In this document: one piece after another, positions 17,925 to 61,928 of the stretch
How the letters are laid out: each line of letters begins with the position of its first letter
How positions within the stretch are numbered: the first letter of the stretch is position 1
Assembly: GCA_016935985.1 (NCBI GenBank)
Contig: JAFGPW010000002.1
Location: 1 to 64,000, forward strand
Direction: 5' to 3'
Source of the DNA: Candidatus Woesearchaeota archaeon
GTDB lineage: Archaea; Nanobdellota; Nanobdellia; Woesearchaeales; JAFGPW01
DNA length: 64,000 nucleotides
Program-made: the position numbers and the translations under genes
The notes under the pieces: model-generated
Databases searched by the model: none
What the model was told of the DNA's origin: nothing
The model's input: the letters and a program-made list of their open reading frames with translations, nothing else

Positions 17925-18015
17925 GTAGCTACGCGCGGATGCGTGATCTTCGGCTACTGCGGAGAATAGCGTCCAGGACAGCAGCGATCGTGCACGGCGA
18001 TTCGGGGTGACATCA

Positions 18016-18297
18016 ATGACTGCGGACAACTCGATATTCATCGGAGGGAAGCCTTTCATGAACTACGTGACCGGGGTCGTCATGCAGTTCACCACCAAGA
18101 GCGCGGATGAGGTGACGATCAAGGCGCGGGGCAAGTTCATCAGCCGCGCGGTGGATGTCGCCGAGGTCGCGGCAAAAAGGTTCCTCGAAGGGCAGGTGGC
18201 GATGAAGGGCATCGTCATCGATTCCGAGGAGTTCGAGAACAAGGAAGGCAGGCAGGTGCGCGTGTCGACCATCGAGATCACGCTCATCAAGATCTGA
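18016..18297 (+). CDS. albA: Alba DNA/RNA-binding chromatin protein
   Basis: 93 aa, whole Alba fold: IFIGGKPFMNYVTGVVMQF (the GKKP-type loop, here GGKP), the KARGKFISRAVDVAEVA helix and the C-terminal strands RVSTIEITLIKI. Alba coats DNA and RNA in most archaea. The ATG at 18016 is chosen because GGGGTGA sits 5 nt before it; a GTG three codons upstream is also in frame. The canonical second Lys of the binding loop is replaced (GGKP rather than GKKP), which may modify affinity. Confidence 0.93.
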   Translation: MTADNSIFIGGKPFMNYVTGVVMQFTTKSADEVTIKARGKFISRAVDVAEVAAKRFLEGQVAMKGIVIDSEEFENKEGRQVRVSTIEITLIKI

Positions 18298-18753: not shown

Positions 18754-19392
18754 TTGAAGAAGCTGATTGTATTCTGCGTGGTTATGGTGATGGCGGCAGC
18801 CGGCGTGAGCGCTACCGCCGTCATGGATGATTTCCTCGACATCGGGAACGCGGCCGACGAGGCGCTGCACAACGCCGTCGGTTTCGGCACGGTGAGCGGC
18901 GGCTACTACGGCGCGTATGATGCTGCCGACAGCGTCGATGACGAGGGCGCCGGATTCGCGAAGGACATCAGGGTCGTGTGGGACGTCGGTTGCGCGGAAG
19001 GGACGAACGCCGCGGCATTCGACCTCGACGCGGGGGCCGCTGACGCCGTGGGCATCGTCTTCCGCTCGCTCGACGGCATCAGCGGAGCCGACACCTATGA
19101 GGTCTATGCGAACAGCCAGTTTGTGGGGACCTATCCCGAGGACGGCTATGTGGTGAGCGAGATCTGGAACACCGTCGGATTCGCCCTGCCGATGCCCATG
19201 AGCGGCGTCATCCACATCGAGGTGGTGGCGATCGATCCCGCCTGGAACTCCTGCGGGACGTGGGGCCAGGTCGCGATGAGCTGGGCATACCTCGCCTATG
19301 ACGCGGGGCAGATCCCCGAGTTCACGACCATCGGCGCGGCGCTCGCGCTCATCGGCGCTGCGGGCTACATCGCATGGAGGAGACGGAAATGA
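18754..19392 (+). CDS. Secreted PEF-CTERM-type surface protein 1
   Basis: 212 aa. TTG start preceded by GGGGTGATG. Signal peptide (KKLIVFCVVMVMAAAGVSA), a beta-rich body of about 165 residues with no family I recognise, and a C-terminal sorting signal IPEFTTIGAALALIGAAGY followed by WRRRK. The tripartite tail (PEF motif, hydrophobic helix, basic end) is the layout read by exosortase/archaeosortase enzymes; no such enzyme is encoded in this window. Head of a coupled pair: its stop overlaps the next ATG. Confidence 0.75.
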   Translation: MKKLIVFCVVMVMAAAGVSATAVMDDFLDIGNAADEALHNAVGFGTVSGGYYGAYDAADSVDDEGAGFAKDIRVVWDVGCAEGTNAAAFDLDAGAADAVGIVFRSLDGISGADTYEVYANSQFVGTYPEDGYVVSEIWNTVGFALPMPMSGVIHIEVVAIDPAWNSCGTWGQVAMSWAYLAYDAGQIPEFTTIGAALALIGAAGYIAWRRRK

Positions 19393-19922
19393 GAGCGCTC
19401 ATGTATGCACTGGTATTTCTCCTGTCGGCCGGCATCGCGACGGCGCTGCCGTATGTCGGCCAGACCGGCATCGACACGACCTATGTCAACAGCTGGAGCG
19501 GCAGCACGTACTACAACACGAACGTGAACGAGTGGATCGTGTGCCGCGCCGACGAGAGCTCGGCATGGGTCGCCGCGTACGACAGCAACATGAACATCCA
19601 GCCAGGTGACGACTACTCGGTCGGCCAGCCGGGCGGGAACTACGACACGTACGCGGTGTGCGCATCGCTCGGCTATGCGACGGTCGACGCGTGGGGAGGC
19701 ACCTGCGGGACGGTCTGCGGCTACTGCGAGGCCCATTACGGCGGGTATGAGAACTACGATTTCGGAAGCTCGCCTTCGAATCTCCATTCTACCGTCCACT
19801 GGCGGTGCGCCCAGTACGTCGGCCCGGTCGATGGCGGCGAGATCCCCGAGTTCACGTCGATCGGCGCGGCGCTCGCGCTGCTCGGGGCAGCGGGCTATAT
19901 CGCGTTCAGGAAGCGGAAGTGA
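19389..19922 (+). CDS. Secreted PEF-CTERM-type surface protein 2
   Basis: 177 aa, starting at the ATG that overlaps the previous stop (ATGA). Signal peptide MRALMYALVFLLSAGIATA, then a body rich in Tyr, Asn and Gly (SWSGSTYYNTNVNEW, GNYDTYAVCASLGYATVD) with several Cys (CGTVCGYC) suggesting disulfides. The tail is IPEFTSIGAALALLGAAGY plus FRKRK. Function unknown; the redox proteins at 13.8-16.9 kb could mature its disulfides. Followed by a T-rich terminator. Confidence 0.75.
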   Translation: MRALMYALVFLLSAGIATALPYVGQTGIDTTYVNSWSGSTYYNTNVNEWIVCRADESSAWVAAYDSNMNIQPGDDYSVGQPGGNYDTYAVCASLGYATVDAWGGTCGTVCGYCEAHYGGYENYDFGSSPSNLHSTVHWRCAQYVGPVDGGEIPEFTSIGAALALLGAAGYIAFRKRK

Positions 19923-19929
19923 ATCCCTT

Positions 19930-19947
19930 CCTTCTTTTTTTCTCTTA
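19930..19947 (+). terminator. Poly-T terminator after PEF proteins 1-2
   Basis: Run of seven T followed by CTCTTATTC just after the stop at 19922; typical archaeal T-rich termination signal. Confidence 0.5.
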
Positions 19948-20028
19948 TTCTCGATATCATCTCCGCCTTCCCTCGTCCGACGCTTTTCCGGGTTTGCTGA
20001 TGCTACTTTCTGATAGTTACAGAAACGA

Positions 20029-20042
20029 TACCTATATATAGT
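20029..20042 (+). promoter_or_regulatory. Box A promoter of PEF proteins 3-4
   Basis: CCTATATATAG, about 60 nt before the ATG at 20099; leader about 35 nt. Confidence 0.5.
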
Positions 20043-20098
20043 ACCGACGCCACCAGCCCCCAAATTCCATTCATTCGACTATGTTGGGGGAAAGAACC

Positions 20099-20503
20099 AT
20101 GAAGAAGACCATTCTCGCGATCGTCCTCGCGATGCTCCTCGTGCCGGGCGCGTTCGCCTGCCACGAGATGGTGCATGTCGAGGATGACCAAGCAAACGAC
20201 ATGCCCGGCGTCTGGGTCAAGCTCGCAAGCGACTGCGGCTGGGGCCCGGCCAACGACGACACCGCTGCCGACGGCTGGACGACCAACTGGTCGGTCTACG
20301 GCTCCTGCCTGTACACCGCTTCGGTCCCGAACCCGCCGGATGGCTACACCTGCGACACCGGCACCGACTACAACACCGGCGACCAGGGCTACATCTATCT
20401 CGTATGCACGCCGACCGGCGAAGTCCCTGAGTTCGGCACCATGGGCGCCGCGCTCGCGCTCCTCGGCGCGGCCGGCTATGTGACCTGGAGGCGGAGAGCA
20501 TGA
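20099..20503 (+). CDS. Secreted PEF-CTERM-type surface protein 3
   Basis: 134 aa. ATG at 20099 follows GGGGGAAAGAACC. Signal peptide KKTILAIVLAMLLVPGAFA, then a small Cys/Trp-containing domain (HEMVHVEDDQANDMPGVWV, NWSVYGSCLYTASV) that looks like a compact immunoglobulin-like or carboxypeptidase-regulatory beta fold; this is only an impression. Tail VPEFGTMGAALALLGAAGY with WRRRA. Stop overlaps the next gene start by 4 nt. Confidence 0.72.
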   Translation: MKKTILAIVLAMLLVPGAFACHEMVHVEDDQANDMPGVWVKLASDCGWGPANDDTAADGWTTNWSVYGSCLYTASVPNPPDGYTCDTGTDYNTGDQGYIYLVCTPTGEVPEFGTMGAALALLGAAGYVTWRRRA

Positions 20504-20907
20504 AGAAGCTGCTCGTCTTCGGACTGGTGCTTCTGGCGACGATCGCCGCCGTGAGCGCGCAGGCAGGATCCGATTGCTTCTATGAGCACGGGTATGTCGG
20601 CTGCGACATCCCGTCCATCGAGGCCTGCGTCTGCGGCATGGATTCGTTCTGCTGCCAGGTTGCGTGGGACTACTGGTGCGTCTTGGAAGCTACCGACCCC
20701 CTGTATTGCGGCGGCCCCTTCTGCGGCGACGGCTACATCGACCAGGATTGGGAGCAGTGCGACGACGGCAACAATGCCGACGGCGACGGCTGCTCGGCCA
20801 ACTGCGCGATCGAGAACGGCGGCGAGATCCCCGAGTTCGGGACCATGGGCGCCGCGCTCGCGCTCCTCGGCGCGGCCGGATACGTCGCGATCAGGAAGCG
20901 GAAGTGA
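20500..20907 (+). CDS. Secreted Cys-rich PEF-CTERM protein 4 with myxococcal-type disulfide repeat
   Basis: 135 aa, ATGA-coupled to the previous gene. Signal peptide MKKLLVFGLVLLATIAAVSA. The mature part has about a dozen Cys; CGDGYIDQDWEQCDDGNNAD followed by GDGCSANC matches the Myxococcus cysteine-rich (DUF4215-like) repeat known from bacterial secreted proteins. Tail IPEFGTMGAALALLGAAGY plus RKRK. The domain is disulfide-stabilised, so an oxidising extracytoplasmic compartment is implied. Confidence 0.78.
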   Translation: MKKLLVFGLVLLATIAAVSAQAGSDCFYEHGYVGCDIPSIEACVCGMDSFCCQVAWDYWCVLEATDPLYCGGPFCGDGYIDQDWEQCDDGNNADGDGCSANCAIENGGEIPEFGTMGAALALLGAAGYVAIRKRK

Positions 20908-20990
20908 ATCACGTTTTTCCATTGTTCATTTCGATCGAGTAAAAAAAAGAGCGTGAACGATCAACCAACCATTCGAATGGAGGAAAGAAC

Positions 20991-21602
20991 ATGAAAGCGA
21001 TCATAGCAATGATAACGATGCTCGTCCTCATGGCGAGCACGGTCTCGGCGATGGACTGCCTGGGCTGCATGCCTCAGTGCCCGGAAGGGTCATTCTATGC
21101 CGCCGGCGACCCTGCTGCCTTCGCGAACACCGTCGCTGATGAGTATGGGAGCGTCACCAACTCCGGCAATGCGGTCGGCATGGACGACGGCCTCTATGCG
21201 GTCATCGCCGCGACCAACCCGGATTCGTTCATCGTCCTCGATATGGGCGAGGGCGAGGAGCTTTGGGGCTGGTTCGGGATAGACCTCAAGGTCTACCAGG
21301 ATGGCAGTGCTGAGAACTTCGTCAACGTCTACGTGTCCAACGACCCTACGAGCGGTTTCGAGTGGGTCGGGACGCTCGACGGGACCGGGGTCGGCAACCT
21401 GAACATCGAGGGCACATCGTACTCGAGCGTCAGGTATGTGAAGATCGTGAGCGGCGCGCTCGTCCTCAACGCTGAGATTGACGCTGTCGAGGGCGTGTGC
21501 ATCTCCGAGCCCGGAAACGAGGTCCCTGAGTTCGGCACCATCGGCGCCGCGCTCGCGCTCCTCGGAGCGGCAGGATTCGTCGCGTACAAGAAGCGGAAGT
21601 GA
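20991..21602 (+). CDS. Secreted PEF-CTERM-type surface protein 5 (F5/8-like beta-sandwich?)
   Basis: 203 aa. Ribosome binding site GGAGG 8 nt before the ATG, next to a 12-nt palindrome CCATTCGAATGG. Signal peptide, short Cys cluster (DCLGCMPQC), then a beta-rich domain (SFIVLDMGEGEELWGWFGID, VNVYVSNDPTSGFEWVG, VRYVKIVSG) whose strand order recalls discoidin/F5-8 type carbohydrate-binding modules. Tail VPEFGTIGAALALLGAAGF plus KKRK. Its last 60 nt are identical to the end of PEF protein 6. Confidence 0.75.
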   Translation: MKAIIAMITMLVLMASTVSAMDCLGCMPQCPEGSFYAAGDPAAFANTVADEYGSVTNSGNAVGMDDGLYAVIAATNPDSFIVLDMGEGEELWGWFGIDLKVYQDGSAENFVNVYVSNDPTSGFEWVGTLDGTGVGNLNIEGTSYSSVRYVKIVSGALVLNAEIDAVEGVCISEPGNEVPEFGTIGAALALLGAAGFVAYKKRK

Positions 21603-21603
21603 A
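21541..21603 (+). repeat. 63-bp direct repeat, copy 1 (PEF-tail DNA)
   Basis: Identical to 22467-22529. Encodes the C-terminal sorting tail from GAALALLGAAGF to the stop of PEF protein 5. Copies flank the detached sigma region-4.2 ORF, so homologous recombination between them would delete it. Confidence 0.85.
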
Positions 21604-21605
21604 AT

Positions 21606-21638
21606 CCGTTTTGATTTTATTTTTTCTTTTTCTTTCTT
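21606..21638 (+). terminator. T-rich terminator after PEF protein 5
   Basis: Long pyrimidine/T tract (TTTTATTTTTTCTTTTTCTT) directly after the stop at 21602. Confidence 0.5.
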
Positions 21639-21690
21639 AGTATGAATAACTATCAGCAGATTCAAATGGGGGTGGCATCACCCGACGGCG

Positions 21691-21831
21691 ATGTATATCA
21701 GAGGGATTATCATGCTCGAAGAGATCGGCCAGATGTTCCACCTCACCCGCGAGCGGGTCCGGCAGATCAAGGAGAAGGCGCTCCAGAAGCTCAGGCACCC
21801 CTCGAAATCCCGCTATTTCACTGATATCTAG
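21691..21831 (+). CDS. Stand-alone sigma-70 region 4.2 helix-turn-helix peptide (or gene fragment)
   Basis: 46 aa from ATG 21691, or 39 aa from ATG 21712 ([11 protein letters not shown]). It contains [20 protein letters not shown] and then [11 protein letters not shown], the canonical region 4.2 of RpoD-type bacterial sigma factors (-35 recognition helix TRERxRQI), and nothing else of a sigma factor. A short hairpin GGGTG-GCAT-CACCC precedes the first ATG. The full sigma gene 0.8 kb downstream has a degenerate region 4.2 (RITKGRAKDYLVRG), so this could be a complementary trans-acting piece. It could equally be the remnant of a decayed sigma paralogue. Confidence 0.6.
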
Positions 21832-21847
21832 GCCTTGTTCCGCAACC

Positions 21848-21880
21848 TTTATATACTAATTGTTACTGCACCGTGACAAT
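21848..21880 (+). promoter_or_regulatory. Promoter and operator-like inverted repeat of the cohesin-type PEF protein
   Basis: Box A CTTTATATAC (21848-21857) followed by ATTGTTAC (21859-21866) and GTGACAAT (21873-21880), an 8-bp inverted repeat with one mismatch and a 6-nt spacer. It sits between box A and the expected start site, where a repressor would block RNA polymerase. Confidence 0.5.
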
Positions 21881-21904
21881 CAAATATGTTTTGGGGGTAC
21901 CACC

Positions 21905-22528
21905 ATGAACAAGATGATAAACATCACGATGCTTCTCGTGCTGGCGATGGCAGGCAGCGCCGCTGCGCAGATGCCGGTCGCGCCGAACACGATCAGCGTC
22001 GTGCCCAGCTACCAGCTCGCCGACGTCGGCGACACGGTGAACGTCGACATCGATATCACCGCAGCCCTCATGCTCACGACCTTCGAGGTCCAGATGGGCT
22101 TCGACCCGGCGATCCTCCAGTTCGAGGACATGCAGAACGGCGGGTTCCTCGGCACTGCTCCCGGCACGATCTGCCTCGGCCCGACCGAGATCGGCCCCGG
22201 CCAGGTGCTCTTCAGCTGCATCCAGCAGATGGTCAACATTCCGATGGTCGGCCCGATGCCGCCTTCCGGCGTCACCGGCGACGGCACGCTCGCGACGATG
22301 CAGTTCACCGCGATCGGCGAGGGCATCTCCCCGGTCGACATCGAGAGCGCGACCATCACCGGCACCATGTACATGCCGTCATCAAGCACCAACGTCGACG
22401 GAGCGGTCGAGGTCATCGGTGACGGCGATGACGACGGCGGCAACGACGTCCCTGAGTTCAGCGCCGTCGGCGCCGCGCTCGCGCTCCTCGGAGCGGCAGG
22501 ATTCGTCGCGTACAAGAAGCGGAAGTGA
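21905..22528 (+). CDS. Secreted cohesin-domain PEF-CTERM protein 6
   Basis: 207 aa; ATG preceded by GGGGGTACCACC. Signal peptide (NITMLLVLAMAGSAAAQ), then one cohesin-type beta-sandwich (residues about 22-165): TISVVPSYQLADVGDTVNVD, TTFEVQMGFDPAILQFED and DGTLATMQFTAIGEG, the order seen in type I cohesins and in the N-domain of the protein at 31297. Acidic linker (GDGDDDGGND), then tail VPEFSAVGAALALLGAAGF plus KKRK. Cohesins bind dockerins; dockerin-like modules are encoded at 33942 and 35974. Confidence 0.8.
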   Translation: MNKMINITMLLVLAMAGSAAAQMPVAPNTISVVPSYQLADVGDTVNVDIDITAALMLTTFEVQMGFDPAILQFEDMQNGGFLGTAPGTICLGPTEIGPGQVLFSCIQQMVNIPMVGPMPPSGVTGDGTLATMQFTAIGEGISPVDIESATITGTMYMPSSSTNVDGAVEVIGDGDDDGGNDVPEFSAVGAALALLGAAGFVAYKKRK

Positions 22529-22529
22529 A
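22467..22529 (+). repeat. 63-bp direct repeat, copy 2 (PEF-tail DNA)
   Basis: Identical to 21541-21603; encodes the last 20 residues and stop of PEF protein 6. Less perfect copies end the other four PEF genes. Confidence 0.85.
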
Positions 22530-22537
22530 TTCCGCCA

Positions 22538-22620: not shown

Positions 22621-23532
22621 GTGGCTCAAACAGCGACGAACACGATAAAGTCGTCCTCTCAAAAACCTTCCAGGCAGGGCGCTGATTTCGATCCCTTCCG
22701 CAGGCATTCGCTGGACATCTATCTCCAAACCCTCGAGGATGATTCGCTCCTCGCTCCTGAGGAAGAGCTCGATCTCGTACGGGAGATGAATCGGCATGAG
22801 GTCGGCACGCCAGGGTATATCGAGAGGATGCACGAGCTGGTGAACGCGAACCGCCGGTTCGTGGTGACGGTCGCGAAGGCGTACCAGGGATACGGCCTCG
22901 GGCTTGAGGACCTCGTCCAGGAGGGGAACATCGGGCTGATCGAGGCGGTGCGGCGTTTCGACGAGACGCGCGGCTTTCGGCTCATCAGCTACGCGGTGTG
23001 GTGGATCAGGCAATCGATCCTCGAGGCCATCAACAAGTATGGCAGGACCGTCCGGCTGCCGACGAACCAGCAGGCCGAGCTCTCGAAGATCAGGAAGGTC
23101 GAGGACTATCTCGAGCAGACCAAAGCCCGCGACATCGACTACACCGAACTCGCGGCAGAGGTCGGCATGCGGGCATCCGAGCTCCAGGGGATCATGGCGG
23201 CAGGGTCGTTCGCGCAGAGCTTCGACAGGCCGGTGGGAGACGACCACACCTTCCATGACCTCTACAGCGTCCACGGCGCCGCCGAGGTCGAGAAGCCCCT
23301 CCTCGATGCATCCCTCAGGGCCGAGGTCGACCACATCCTCGGGAAGTTCCCTGGGACCACGCGGTCGATCATCAGGTCCTACTTCGGCCTCGACGGGCCG
23401 CGTATGACCCTCGACGAGATCGCGTCCGATCTGCGGATCACGAAGGGGCGGGCCAAGGATTACCTCGTGCGGGGGATAAGGGCGCTGCGCAAGCCCCCCT
23501 ATTCGACACTGCTCAAGCAGTACCTCGGCTGA
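22621..23532 (+). CDS. Sigma-70 family RNA polymerase sigma factor in an archaeal setting
   Basis: 303 aa, GTG start. Region 1.2-like helix (DIYLQTLEDDSLLAPEEE), complete region 2 (VNANRRFVVTVAKAYQGYG, LEDLVQEGNIGLIEAVRRFD, FRLISYAVWWIRQSI) and region 3.0 (KYGRTVRLPTNQQ) match primary sigma factors, including the core-binding and -10 melting segments. Region 3.1 is present (DYTELAAEVGMRASELQG). Region 4 is recognisable (TTRSIIRSYFGLDGPRMTLD) but its recognition helix is altered (RITKGRAKDYLVRGIRAL). Upstream AACGTTAAAAAG (about 22573-22584) may be its own box A. How a bacterial sigma would act with an archaeal polymerase is unknown. Confidence 0.93.
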   Translation: MAQTATNTIKSSSQKPSRQGADFDPFRRHSLDIYLQTLEDDSLLAPEEELDLVREMNRHEVGTPGYIERMHELVNANRRFVVTVAKAYQGYGLGLEDLVQEGNIGLIEAVRRFDETRGFRLISYAVWWIRQSILEAINKYGRTVRLPTNQQAELSKIRKVEDYLEQTKARDIDYTELAAEVGMRASELQGIMAAGSFAQSFDRPVGDDHTFHDLYSVHGAAEVEKPLLDASLRAEVDHILGKFPGTTRSIIRSYFGLDGPRMTLDEIASDLRITKGRAKDYLVRGIRALRKPPYSTLLKQYLG

Positions 23533-23574: not shown

Positions 23575-23726
23575 GGGCCTGTAGCATAGCCTGGATAGTG
23601 CGGCCGGCTTCGGACCAAACCTTTAGGAAAAGTCTGGTCAAAACAGGGGATATCCCTCGGATCAAGCTGCCTGAAGAGGGTTTGGGAAGCGACCGGCTGA
23701 CCGGGGTTCGAATCCTCGCAGGCCCA
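23575..23726 (+). tRNA. tRNA-Arg (TCG) with 78-nt intron at position 37/38
   Basis: Acceptor GGGCCTG (23575-23581) pairs CAGGCCC (23719-23725), with discriminator A at 23726. D stem GCAT/GTGC. Anticodon stem GCCGG (23603-23607) pairs CCGGC (23693-23697); loop C-T-TCG-G-A gives anticodon TCG at 23610-23612. T arm CGGGG-TTCGAAT-CCTCG. The intron runs about 23614-23691, between position 37 (G 23613) and 38 (A 23692), the canonical archaeal site cut by the splicing endonuclease. No CCA is encoded. Confidence 0.93.
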
Positions 23727-23866
23727 TTATCCTTTTCTAAAGGATAGAACCCGAAGGGGCGTGCGGGGCATCCGCGGTGCGGAGCCCTCGCTCACCAATC
23801 CTTACCGATGCTCGGTCGGCTAGGCGAAGCGCACGCCGGCCCTCGGTGTCGATGGACGAAACCATC

Positions 23867-23887
23867 GTTCGGATCCTCGCAGGCCCA
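23867..23887 (+). repeat. Duplicate of the tRNA-Arg 3' end (att-like)
   Basis: 21 nt matching the tRNA 3' end (23706-23726) with one mismatch (GTTCGGATCCTCGCAGGCCCA). A tRNA-3'-end direct repeat is the usual footprint of integration by a tyrosine recombinase. The 140 nt between copies hold no gene and several short inverted repeats (for example ATGG-ACGAAA-CCAT), so only a scar or a minimal remnant remains. Confidence 0.6.
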
Positions 23888-23924
23888 CTACATCCTCCTT
23901 CTCTTGATGTGCCTGGTATCAGAA

Positions 23925-35973: not shown

Positions 35974-37824
35974 ATGCACGCGACCATCGAATATCCCCCT
36001 GATCTCCTCCGCACCGCTCTGTACACGCTGCTCTTCACGCTGCTCGGCGGCGCGCCATCGCTCTTCGGCCAGCAGGCCGGCGAAGGCACGGCGCCAGGGG
36101 CGCATCCCCTCAGGACCGGCAAGGGCGTCCACGACCTGCGCTACCCGACCGGGCTCTCGCTCGACGACGCGGTCGAGGAGATGGACCGGCGGCTCGAGGC
36201 GATGAAGGCCGACTACCGGATGAGGACAAGCGTCCCCGACGAGCTCGACCTCTCGAAGGTGACCGCAGCCAACGTCGCCGCTGCCGGCGACGGCGGTCCG
36301 AACCCGGTGCTCGGGCTCTTCAAGCCGGCGGTGGTGCCGAACCCGCAGGACAGCACGGACTACAGGGAGTGCTTCCCCGAGGACTTCCACGTGCTCGCGC
36401 AGCCGGGGGCGAGGAACGCCGGCATCGATTCGCTCAAGGCCTATAGTGTCGTCGATGGCAAGCGCGTCTTCCATGACCATGTGCCGGTCCTCGCCGGCGC
36501 GCCGCTCGACTCGTCCTACGGGTTCCCGCGGGGGTTCGCGCTGGTGGGTCTCGATTCGGTCATGGTCGAGGTCGTGGCGAAGCGAGGGGCGCTCGAGAGC
36601 GATCCCCTGACCCTCAATGTCTATCACGATGAGAAGTGGGGCGTCTTCGGCCTTCCCGGCGACGTGGTGAAGGATCTCATCGTCAACCTCACCGACTACC
36701 TCCAGGTCGCGCTCCATTATGGGCGGCACATCTGGGACGGCCGAACGCCCCGATGGAACACCATCAGCACGGTGGATATCGCCGGCAAGAATCCTCCGGA
36801 GAACATCATCGTGTGGGACGGCATGGACTCGCTCGCCGACATCCTCGTGATCTTCGCCAACTACGGCGCGCAGATCAACAACGCTCTCGGCAAGGCCCTC
36901 ACCTCGCTCTCCGACACGGGCCGGGCGATGAAACCGGTCGGCGCCGCCTCGCTCCTCGAGCGGGGCCTGCGGCATCAGGCGGGGGTCTCGCAGCGCGACG
37001 CTGACGTCTCGCTCCTGGAGCGGATGGTGAAACGCTACGGACCGGTCGAGTTCACCACCTCGTCGCAGGCCGATTCGCTCGGCAAGGTCAGCTATACCGT
37101 GTCGGACGTCCAGGCGCTCGGCGCCGACGGCGCGAAGTCGCTCTTCCTGAGCGCCGAACCCCAGGGGCCTGACACGCTCATCATCGGCATGCACGCCTTC
37201 GAGACGCTCGAGCGCGTCTACGGCCTCGAGCTGCGTGACATCGTCGCGAACGGCGAGCTCTGGGTCGAGCAGACGAAGTCCTTCGGCGGCCAGTCGGTCG
37301 CGGCGATGACGCCGGTCGAGAGCTACATCGAGTCGCTCCTCGGCGACAGGAGCGGCGCCGACCTCAAGGACGGCATCGTCAGGCTCATGCTCGTGGGCGA
37401 CGGCATCGCACGGCATCCCGAGCTCTCGTTCCGGTACGAGCTCGCCCAGCGCGACGGCTGGGGGATTCGGACGCTCGAGATGAGCGGGCTCTCCCTCGCC
37501 GAGAACCGGGGCACCGCCCCGTCGGTGCTTCCCGGCACGCCGGTGCTCTACGGCCAGAACTACCCGAACCCCTTCAACGCCGGCACGAGGATCCCGTTCG
37601 AGGTCCGGTCGCTTTCCGACCCGTATGAGATGGAGCTCTCCGTCTTCGACATCCTCGGGCGGAAGGTGCACGAGGACCGCCTCCGCGTCGGCGGGCCGGG
37701 CAGGTACGAGTTCCGCTGGGACGGCACCAACCTCTACGGGAGCGCCGCGGCGAGCGGGACCTACATCTACACGCTCAAGAGCCCGGACAAGGTCCACGTC
37801 AACAGGATGCAGCTCGTGAAGTGA
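35974..37824 (+). CDS. Secreted dockerin-like protein with FlgD/T9SS-type tail (paralogue B)
   Basis: 616 aa, 10 nt after paralogue A. Same order: signal/anchor (LLFTLLGGAPSLFGQQ), VHDLRYPTGLSLDDAVEEM, beta region, dockerin-like pair in degenerate form (GDVVKDLIVNLTDYLQVALH ... VDIAGKNP ... DGMDSLADILVIFANYG; the first calcium loop has lost its Asp/Gly pattern), a shared TKSFGGQSVAAMTPVESYIE block, and tail GQNYPNPFNAGTRIPFEV ... EFRWDGTNLYG ... NRMQLVK. Divergence in the calcium loop suggests different or weaker partner binding. No T9SS machinery is in the window. Confidence 0.83.
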   Translation: MHATIEYPPDLLRTALYTLLFTLLGGAPSLFGQQAGEGTAPGAHPLRTGKGVHDLRYPTGLSLDDAVEEMDRRLEAMKADYRMRTSVPDELDLSKVTAANVAAAGDGGPNPVLGLFKPAVVPNPQDSTDYRECFPEDFHVLAQPGARNAGIDSLKAYSVVDGKRVFHDHVPVLAGAPLDSSYGFPRGFALVGLDSVMVEVVAKRGALESDPLTLNVYHDEKWGVFGLPGDVVKDLIVNLTDYLQVALHYGRHIWDGRTPRWNTISTVDIAGKNPPENIIVWDGMDSLADILVIFANYGAQINNALGKALTSLSDTGRAMKPVGAASLLERGLRHQAGVSQRDADVSLLERMVKRYGPVEFTTSSQADSLGKVSYTVSDVQALGADGAKSLFLSAEPQGPDTLIIGMHAFETLERVYGLELRDIVANGELWVEQTKSFGGQSVAAMTPVESYIESLLGDRSGADLKDGIVRLMLVGDGIARHPELSFRYELAQRDGWGIRTLEMSGLSLAENRGTAPSVLPGTPVLYGQNYPNPFNAGTRIPFEVRSLSDPYEMELSVFDILGRKVHEDRLRVGGPGRYEFRWDGTNLYGSAAASGTYIYTLKSPDKVHVNRMQLVK

Positions 37825-61132: not shown

Positions 61133-61928
61133 CGCGCGCTTCATCGGCATCGACCTCGCCTGGTCGACGAGGAACGGCACCGGCGTCGCGGCGCTGGCAG
61201 GGGACGCGCGTTCTGTCCGGCTCATCGCGTCGGATGTCGTCATGACGGACGACGAGATCCTCTCGTTCGTCGAGGAGCACCGCGGCGGCGGGGCCTGCCA
61301 TGTGGCGGTCGACGCGCCGCTGCTCGTCCCGAACCGGACCGGAAGGCGCATCGCCGAGGTGAAGGTGGGCGAGCTCTTCAGGCACCACCACGCCGGCGCG
61401 CACCCGGCGAACCGCGAGCGGCTGACGCAGTGGACCGGCAGCGTCAGGGGCGAGGTGATCGCCCAGCGGCTCGTGGAGGCCGGCTTCGCCCACGACCCCT
61501 ACCTACAGAGACACGATCCCGGAAGCAAGGTCTTCGAGGTCTACCCGCACCCGTCGATGGTGGTGCTCTTCGGGCTGCCGCGCATCCTCCAGTACAAGGC
61601 GAAGCCCAAGCGCGACTACGCCTCCCGGTACCGGGAATTCGGGAGATACCAGAAGCATCTTGCAGCGCTCAGACGGTCAACTCCCTCTCTCGTCCTTCCC
61701 GACACTATCATCAACAAAAAAGTTGAAGGGATGAAGGGAAGGGCGCTGAAGCGCTACGAGGACCTGCTCGATGCCGTCTTCTGCGCCTACATCGCCTGCT
61801 ATGCCTGGGCGCATCCCGAACGCTGCGCCGTGCTCGGGAACCTGCGCGAGGGATACATCATGACGCCGGTGTTCGGGAAGAAGGGGGAAAGAGAAGAAAA
61901 AGGAAGAGGAACAAGGAAGGGGCGCTGA
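61125..61928 (+). CDS. DUF429 (RNase H-fold) protein
   Basis: 267 aa from TTG 61125 (LASARFIGIDLAWS). N-terminal FIGIDLAWSTRNGTGVAAL, VAVDAPLLVPN, then YPHPSMVVLFGLP, KPKRDYASRYREF and LLDAVFCAYIACYAWAHP, all DUF429 hallmarks with acidic residues at RNase H-like positions. A nuclease role is predicted for the family, not shown. An ATG at 61098 would give 9 extra residues but overlaps the VIT gene more. The last 20 residues are a Lys/Glu/Arg tail. Confidence 0.82.
   Translation: MASARFIGIDLAWSTRNGTGVAALAGDARSVRLIASDVVMTDDEILSFVEEHRGGGACHVAVDAPLLVPNRTGRRIAEVKVGELFRHHHAGAHPANRERLTQWTGSVRGEVIAQRLVEAGFAHDPYLQRHDPGSKVFEVYPHPSMVVLFGLPRILQYKAKPKRDYASRYREFGRYQKHLAALRRSTPSLVLPDTIINKKVEGMKGRALKRYEDLLDAVFCAYIACYAWAHPERCAVLGNLREGYIMTPVFGKKGEREEKGRGTRKGR

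Follow-up and report, generated by a model that had tools for sequence, protein, structure and literature searches.

Bacterial-type sigma factors encoded by archaea raise the question of what role such a protein could have in a cell whose RNA polymerase uses TBP and TFB. We addressed this question for a sigma-70 gene of a Candidatus Woesearchaeota archaeon by analysing a 64,000-nucleotide stretch of its DNA (the window), which comprises bases 1-64000 of a 135-kb contig. The genome is 1.40 Mb in ten contigs, 92.5% complete and 0.9% contaminated.

A sigma-70 factor in an archaeal chromosome

The sigma gene (Table 1) encodes regions 1.2, 2, 3 and 4 of a sigma-70 factor, with Pfam scores for regions 2, 3 and 4 all above the curated cut-offs. 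Searching the PDB with phmmer returned SigA and RpoD chains, with E-values to 3.5e-41 across residues 32-302. An AlphaFold model calculated from a 43-row alignment has a mean pLDDT of 85, and its helices are confident up to and including region 4. Foldseek matched this model to primary sigmas at 1.5e-15; the TM-scores, near 0.4, presumably reflect a different arrangement of the domains. The protein does not reach the NCBIfam equivalog cut-offs for RpoD_Cterm (161.8 of 354 bits) or the RpoD/SigA family (175.1 of 384.5 bits). Within region 2 our residue survey found the equivalents of D403, Q406, E407, N409, Y430, W433, W434 and Q437 to be retained. The original prediction, made from the sequence alone, of a full sigma-70 factor is borne out by the domain, structure and fold searches. 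It had correctly listed regions 1.2, 2 and 3 and the kept core and -10 residues, but had overlooked region 4, with its altered -35 helix. As region 4 is also present the factor is complete, though its recognition helix is non-canonical. A profile search of the genome identified no second copy of sigma-70 region 2. A weak box A-like element precedes the start codon.

The surroundings of the gene are archaeal, as had been proposed. The gene for the chromatin protein Alba lies 4.3 kb upstream, an intron-containing tRNA gene follows just downstream, and a search of the genome found one TBP, one TFB and one Rpo1', so the host cell would have a single, archaeal polymerase. The genome thus combines a sigma-70 factor with TBP, TFB and an archaeal RNA polymerase, as do the DPANN archaea from which bacterial-type sigma-70 factors have been described (fam00359; PMC8204110). 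We looked for a composition break that would betray misjoined bacterial DNA and found none: in a 464 kb genome sample the sigma gene falls at the 39th percentile of genome genes for codon score and the 30th for GC3 (0.84). The host-like codon usage and GC3, the 135-kb contig, Alba and the tRNA make a recent bacterial insert or a misjoined contig unlikely. Misassembly of bacterial DNA onto an archaeal contig is barely credible, for despite the kinship of the sigma sequence to Bacteroidota its identity to any bacterium is only about 40%, and single-contig, complete relatives also carry sigma genes. The gene is long settled in a genuinely archaeal chromosome and encodes a full sigma-70 factor.

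Two further tRNA-like features were observed in the window. A partial second tRNA 3' end (23864-23889) lies 160 bp after the intron-containing tRNA and looks like a former attachment site or the remnant of a tRNA, and a tRNA-Asp (anticodon atc) called by ARAGORN at 61188-61284 has no Rfam support and is probably false.

Table 1. Features of the sigma locus, in window coordinates.
Feature	Position	Strand	Basis and remarks
Alba chromatin protein, archaeal hallmark	18007..18297	+	Pfam Alba 8.9e-16
Uninterrupted run of six small surface-protein genes, immediately upstream of the sigma gene	18754..22528	+	Shared C-terminal sorting-like tail rich in [IV]PEF-x-GAALAL-x-GAAG-[YF]-KR
Surface gene 5 tail	21512..21608	+	94% identical to the gene 6 tail at 22438-22534
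Orphan sigma region 4.2 ORF	21712..21831	+	Pfam 4.5e-11; frame also open from ATG 21691
Possible archaeal box A of the sigma gene, TTAAAAA	22578..22584	+	Inferred from sequence; weak; 37 nt before the start codon
Sigma-70 family factor, FCB primary-sigma type	22621..23532	+	ORF, GTG start, 303 aa
Region 2, predicted core clamp binding and -10 reading/melting	22837..23046	+	Pfam Sigma70_r2 9e-20, 70.7 bits, aa 73-142
Region 3	23077..23247	+	Pfam r3 3.3e-7, 30.7 bits, aa 153-209
Region 4, HTH predicted to fold	23341..23493	+	Pfam r4 3.9e-6, 26.7 bits, aa 241-291; pLDDT 93-97
Rewritten -35 recognition helix, TKGRAKDYLV	23440..23469	+	Alignment, residue survey, three-frame check
Intron-containing tRNA gene, just downstream of the sigma gene	23575..23726	+	Rfam RF00005, 45 bits; anticodon TCG (Arg) read by eye

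Origin and distribution

The best 80 matches of the protein among GTDB genomes were from Bacteroidota and some Chlorobi, Ignavibacteria and KSB1, at 37-42% identity and nearly all spanning residues 30-303. A tree of 100 rows places the window sigma within the primary-sigma clade of Bacteroidota, Chlorobi and Ignavibacteria (FCB; 49 rows, support 97/95), which also holds viral sigmas and a few archaeal ones, from genomes G267, G130, G168 and G010, with that of G018 just outside. The remaining archaeal sigmas are placed elsewhere, and the well-supported branches require at least five label changes; an origin of the archaeal FCB-type sigmas in one acquisition is neither rejected nor shown (p-AU 0.207). 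The window sigma resembles RpoD/SigA of these bacteria in length, in domain order and in identity over most of the protein, and shares with them the ISYAVWWIRQSIL core motif and the LLK-YLG C-terminus. It differs from them in being encoded by an archaeon, in its -35 helix, in carrying Q for N at position 406 and in its long branch. Most of the DPANN sigmas sampled here, in contrast, lie outside the FCB-type clade and have a canonical -35 helix. Judged by tree and composition, the window sigma is of FCB primary-sigma type, horizontally acquired and ameliorated to host codon usage.

A 616-residue protein elsewhere in the window (35974-37824) has a C-terminal part weakly like the sorting domains of type IX secretion, a Bacteroidota system, with T9SS_sortase at 1.3e-8 but far below its cut-off and Por_Secre_tail just below. 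It is possible that this reflects further kinship to Bacteroidota.

Archaeal sigma-70 genes as such are known already. They are prevalent in Woesearchaeota (fam00359), where anti-sigma factors were not found (Castelle et al. 2021, PMC8204110), and about a third of the relatives carry one. The window sigma was matched in 104 of 353 genomes of the order (E<=1e-5); the order spans 87+ families, and the search returned no other member of the host's family. PF04542 occurs in 127 of the 371 genomes sampled from the phylum (93/243 among good genomes), including the single-contig genomes G010 and G364. The earlier description of such factors as rare, and as reported in a few single-cell genomes, does not hold for this lineage against these counts and the published prevalence.

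Tandem pairs or triples of sigma genes are frequent (for example G041:C42, G052:C31, G191:C56, G192:C28, G218:C196, G310:C107 and G120:C6), and some genomes of the order carry up to six sigma-70 genes. Across 20 neighbourhoods we found no conserved sigma operon, save for a GHKL-ATPase gene adjoining the sigma gene in two relatives (L244 6320-10109 in G308 and L245 9385-14446 in G200), an arrangement that recalls the MZA defence system without matching it.

An unusual -35 recognition helix

The canonical -35 recognition helix is absent from the window sigma, which has KGRAKDY in place of RERVRQI, with the substitutions R584K, E585G, R588K and Q589D. A compensated frameshift was considered as the cause and rejected, as a three-frame check restored the motif in no other frame. 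Among the archaeal sigmas aligned at these positions E585 is present in 40/42 and Q589 in 41/43, and similar degeneracy of the helix was observed in only 1 of about 43, sigma B of G041, which stands in tandem with a canonical sigma. Region 4.2 is the selectively diverged part of the protein: measured against the FCB consensus, its identity is 0.34 compared to 0.67 in region 2, a ratio among the lowest in the clade. What appears to be new here is a -35 helix that has been rewritten while the core-binding and -10 residues persist.

An orphan region 4.2 upstream of the sigma gene

A short open reading frame 0.8 kb upstream of the sigma gene, absent from the list of the original prediction, encodes region 4.2 alone, with a canonical helix, and is the best region 4 match in the genome. 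It ends in a natural stop, follows host codon usage and is of FCB type, its nearest sequences being the G168 sigma and FCB sigmas. This orphan is a second new observation. It lies downstream of the tail copy of surface gene 5, and the sigma gene downstream of the tail copy of gene 6. The locus probably once held two FCB-type sigma genes, one of which was deleted down to its end, leaving the orphan. Of about 120 region 4.2 matches in the order, few are short-frame orphans of this kind, and the one in G226 is part of a stop-riddled sigma pseudogene.

SigO/RsoA of Bacillus subtilis is a split sigma, in which a separate region 4 piece accompanies a sigma with an altered region 4, and the window locus likewise places an orphan region 4 piece beside such a sigma. 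Cooperation of the orphan peptide with the full factor is nevertheless very improbable. The orphan holds exactly the helix missing from its neighbour and has a natural stop and host codon usage, and the degenerate-helix sigma of G041 is also in tandem with a canonical one; but the orphan is only 39-46 residues long and without region 4.1, no box A can be seen before it, a T-rich tract like a terminator precedes it, and its kind is rare in the order. Unlike the B. subtilis pair, the window combines a region 4.2 piece that is probably unexpressed with a main factor of full length.

Around ten small, secreted-looking proteins with the [IV]PEF...GAALAL-GAAG-[YF]...KR tail are encoded at 18754-22528 of the window and at G000:C4 33950-50514. 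They resemble sorting-signal proteins, with no clear match to an NCBIfam sorting model and TIGR01167 marginally above cut-off for two of them. We considered a surface-protein regulon of the sigma factor and rejected it, as the elements found at the PEF-type genes are TATA elements resembling box A and not sigma sites. The array was not seen beside other sigmas in the neighbourhoods examined.

The host polymerase and its promoters

Sigma docks on the coiled coil of the beta' subunit, where the substitutions R275Q, E295K and A302D cripple holoenzyme formation (PMC8321222). At the positions of E. coli beta' R275, E295 and A302, the importance of which comes from the E. coli work, the clamp coil of the host Rpo1' carries I, L and H. 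These residues are the same in the 29 relatives of the order that we compared, with or without sigma genes, and no co-adaptation was seen in the sigma-bearing genomes of this set. Canonical docking of sigma is therefore doubtful. Region 4 is positioned by the flap-tip helix, the absence of which is common in archaea (PMC8321222), and relaxed constraint on -35 reading would follow from the lack of this helix. On the sigma side, the long-branch archaeal sigmas retain D403 in 43/45, E407 in 39/45, N409 in 38/45 and W434 in 41/45, and the persistence of core-binding and -10 residues over such branches suggests that contact with a polymerase clamp has been maintained.

Upstream of 211 genes sampled from about a third of the genome, with gene calls from a simple codon model, FCB-type and sigma-70-type promoters were not above composition-matched controls, which argues against a general sigma regulon, and this test identified no target promoter or regulon for the window sigma. 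The archaeal box A, TTTATATA, was present 27 times upstream of the same genes, compared to 1.75 in controls, a 15-fold enrichment. Two FCB promoter matches in the window, where 0.02 were expected, were set aside: one lies in a locally AT-rich gap, the other is probably inside an ORF, and the 211 regions gave no enrichment over controls. Two further observations are new: the host polymerase lacks the three key sigma-docking residues and is alike in sigma-less relatives, and upstream of the sampled genes box A is enriched but sigma-type promoters are not.

Possible roles of the sigma factor

The explanation we favour, with a probability of roughly 40%, is that the horizontally acquired sigma acts on the archaeal polymerase as an accessory initiation factor or regulator that is driven by sigma2, depends on the -10 element only and has few targets. 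The protein would be produced from host TBP/TFB promoters, and its region 2 would touch the clamp of the sole polymerase in the cell and open or read -10-like DNA at very few targets, with no -35 recognition; of the two sigma genes that the locus probably had originally, one would have decayed to the orphan. Several observations sit uneasily with this explanation. The docking positions of Rpo1' carry I, L and H here as in sigma-less relatives, with no sign of co-adaptation; most archaeal sigmas have a perfect -35 helix, for which an archaeal polymerase offers no evident use; and the promoter test gave no target promoter or regulon.

It is also possible, although unlikely, that repeated horizontal transfer has left the gene as a passenger that is functionless or decaying. 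The patchy distribution, the orphan fragment, the G226 pseudogene and the altered -35 helix would all be expected of such a gene, but the 303-residue frame is intact and fully ameliorated, the region 2 contact residues are retained and the fold is predicted to be intact through region 4.

A quite unlikely reading is that the sigma targets a bacterial RNA polymerase, with a symbiotic or predatory archaeon delivering it into a bacterial partner, perhaps one of the Bacteroidota, and redirecting transcription there. The archaeal sigmas of the order derive from several bacterial lineages and keep bacterial-core and -10/-35 residues over long branches, whereas the polymerase of these cells is without the docking residues and no matching promoters are present in the host genome. 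Against this, the window sigma no longer has the -35 helix, neither a signal peptide nor a delivery system was identified, and there is no known partner; we know of no precedent for an archaeal sigma delivered into a bacterium. Extended to the order as a whole, the idea becomes that its archaeal sigmas are selected for bacterial, not archaeal, RNA polymerase, as exported effectors that reprogramme a bacterial partner. We regard this as improbable, although it would explain why bacterial core and promoter contacts are kept when the cell's own polymerase and genome do not match them.

We also doubt strongly that the gene belongs to a defence or mobile-element module, as an MzaA-like or phage-derived sigma. 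Viral FCB-type sigmas share its clade, the GHKL-ATPase gene adjoins a sigma gene in two relatives and the partial tRNA 3' end is attachment-site-like. MzaA of the MZA anti-phage system, however, shares only the generic sigma regions 2-4 with the window sigma, which lacks its 400-residue N-terminal part and scores far below the cut-off (160.3 of 800 bits), and no MZA partner genes were found among the scanned neighbours. No phage or defence genes adjoin the window sigma, apart from a single PHROG-matching gene of unknown function, and the neighbours of its nearest archaeal sigmas look chromosomal.

Returning to the role of bacterial-type sigmas in these archaea, the order presents a testable contradiction: more than a third of the good genomes in the phylum encode sigma factors and the polymerase- and promoter-contact residues of these are strongly conserved, yet the clamp coil of the order lacks the known docking residues, with or without a sigma. 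Either the archaeal polymerase has a novel way of accepting sigma, or sigma serves a bacterial polymerase in another place.
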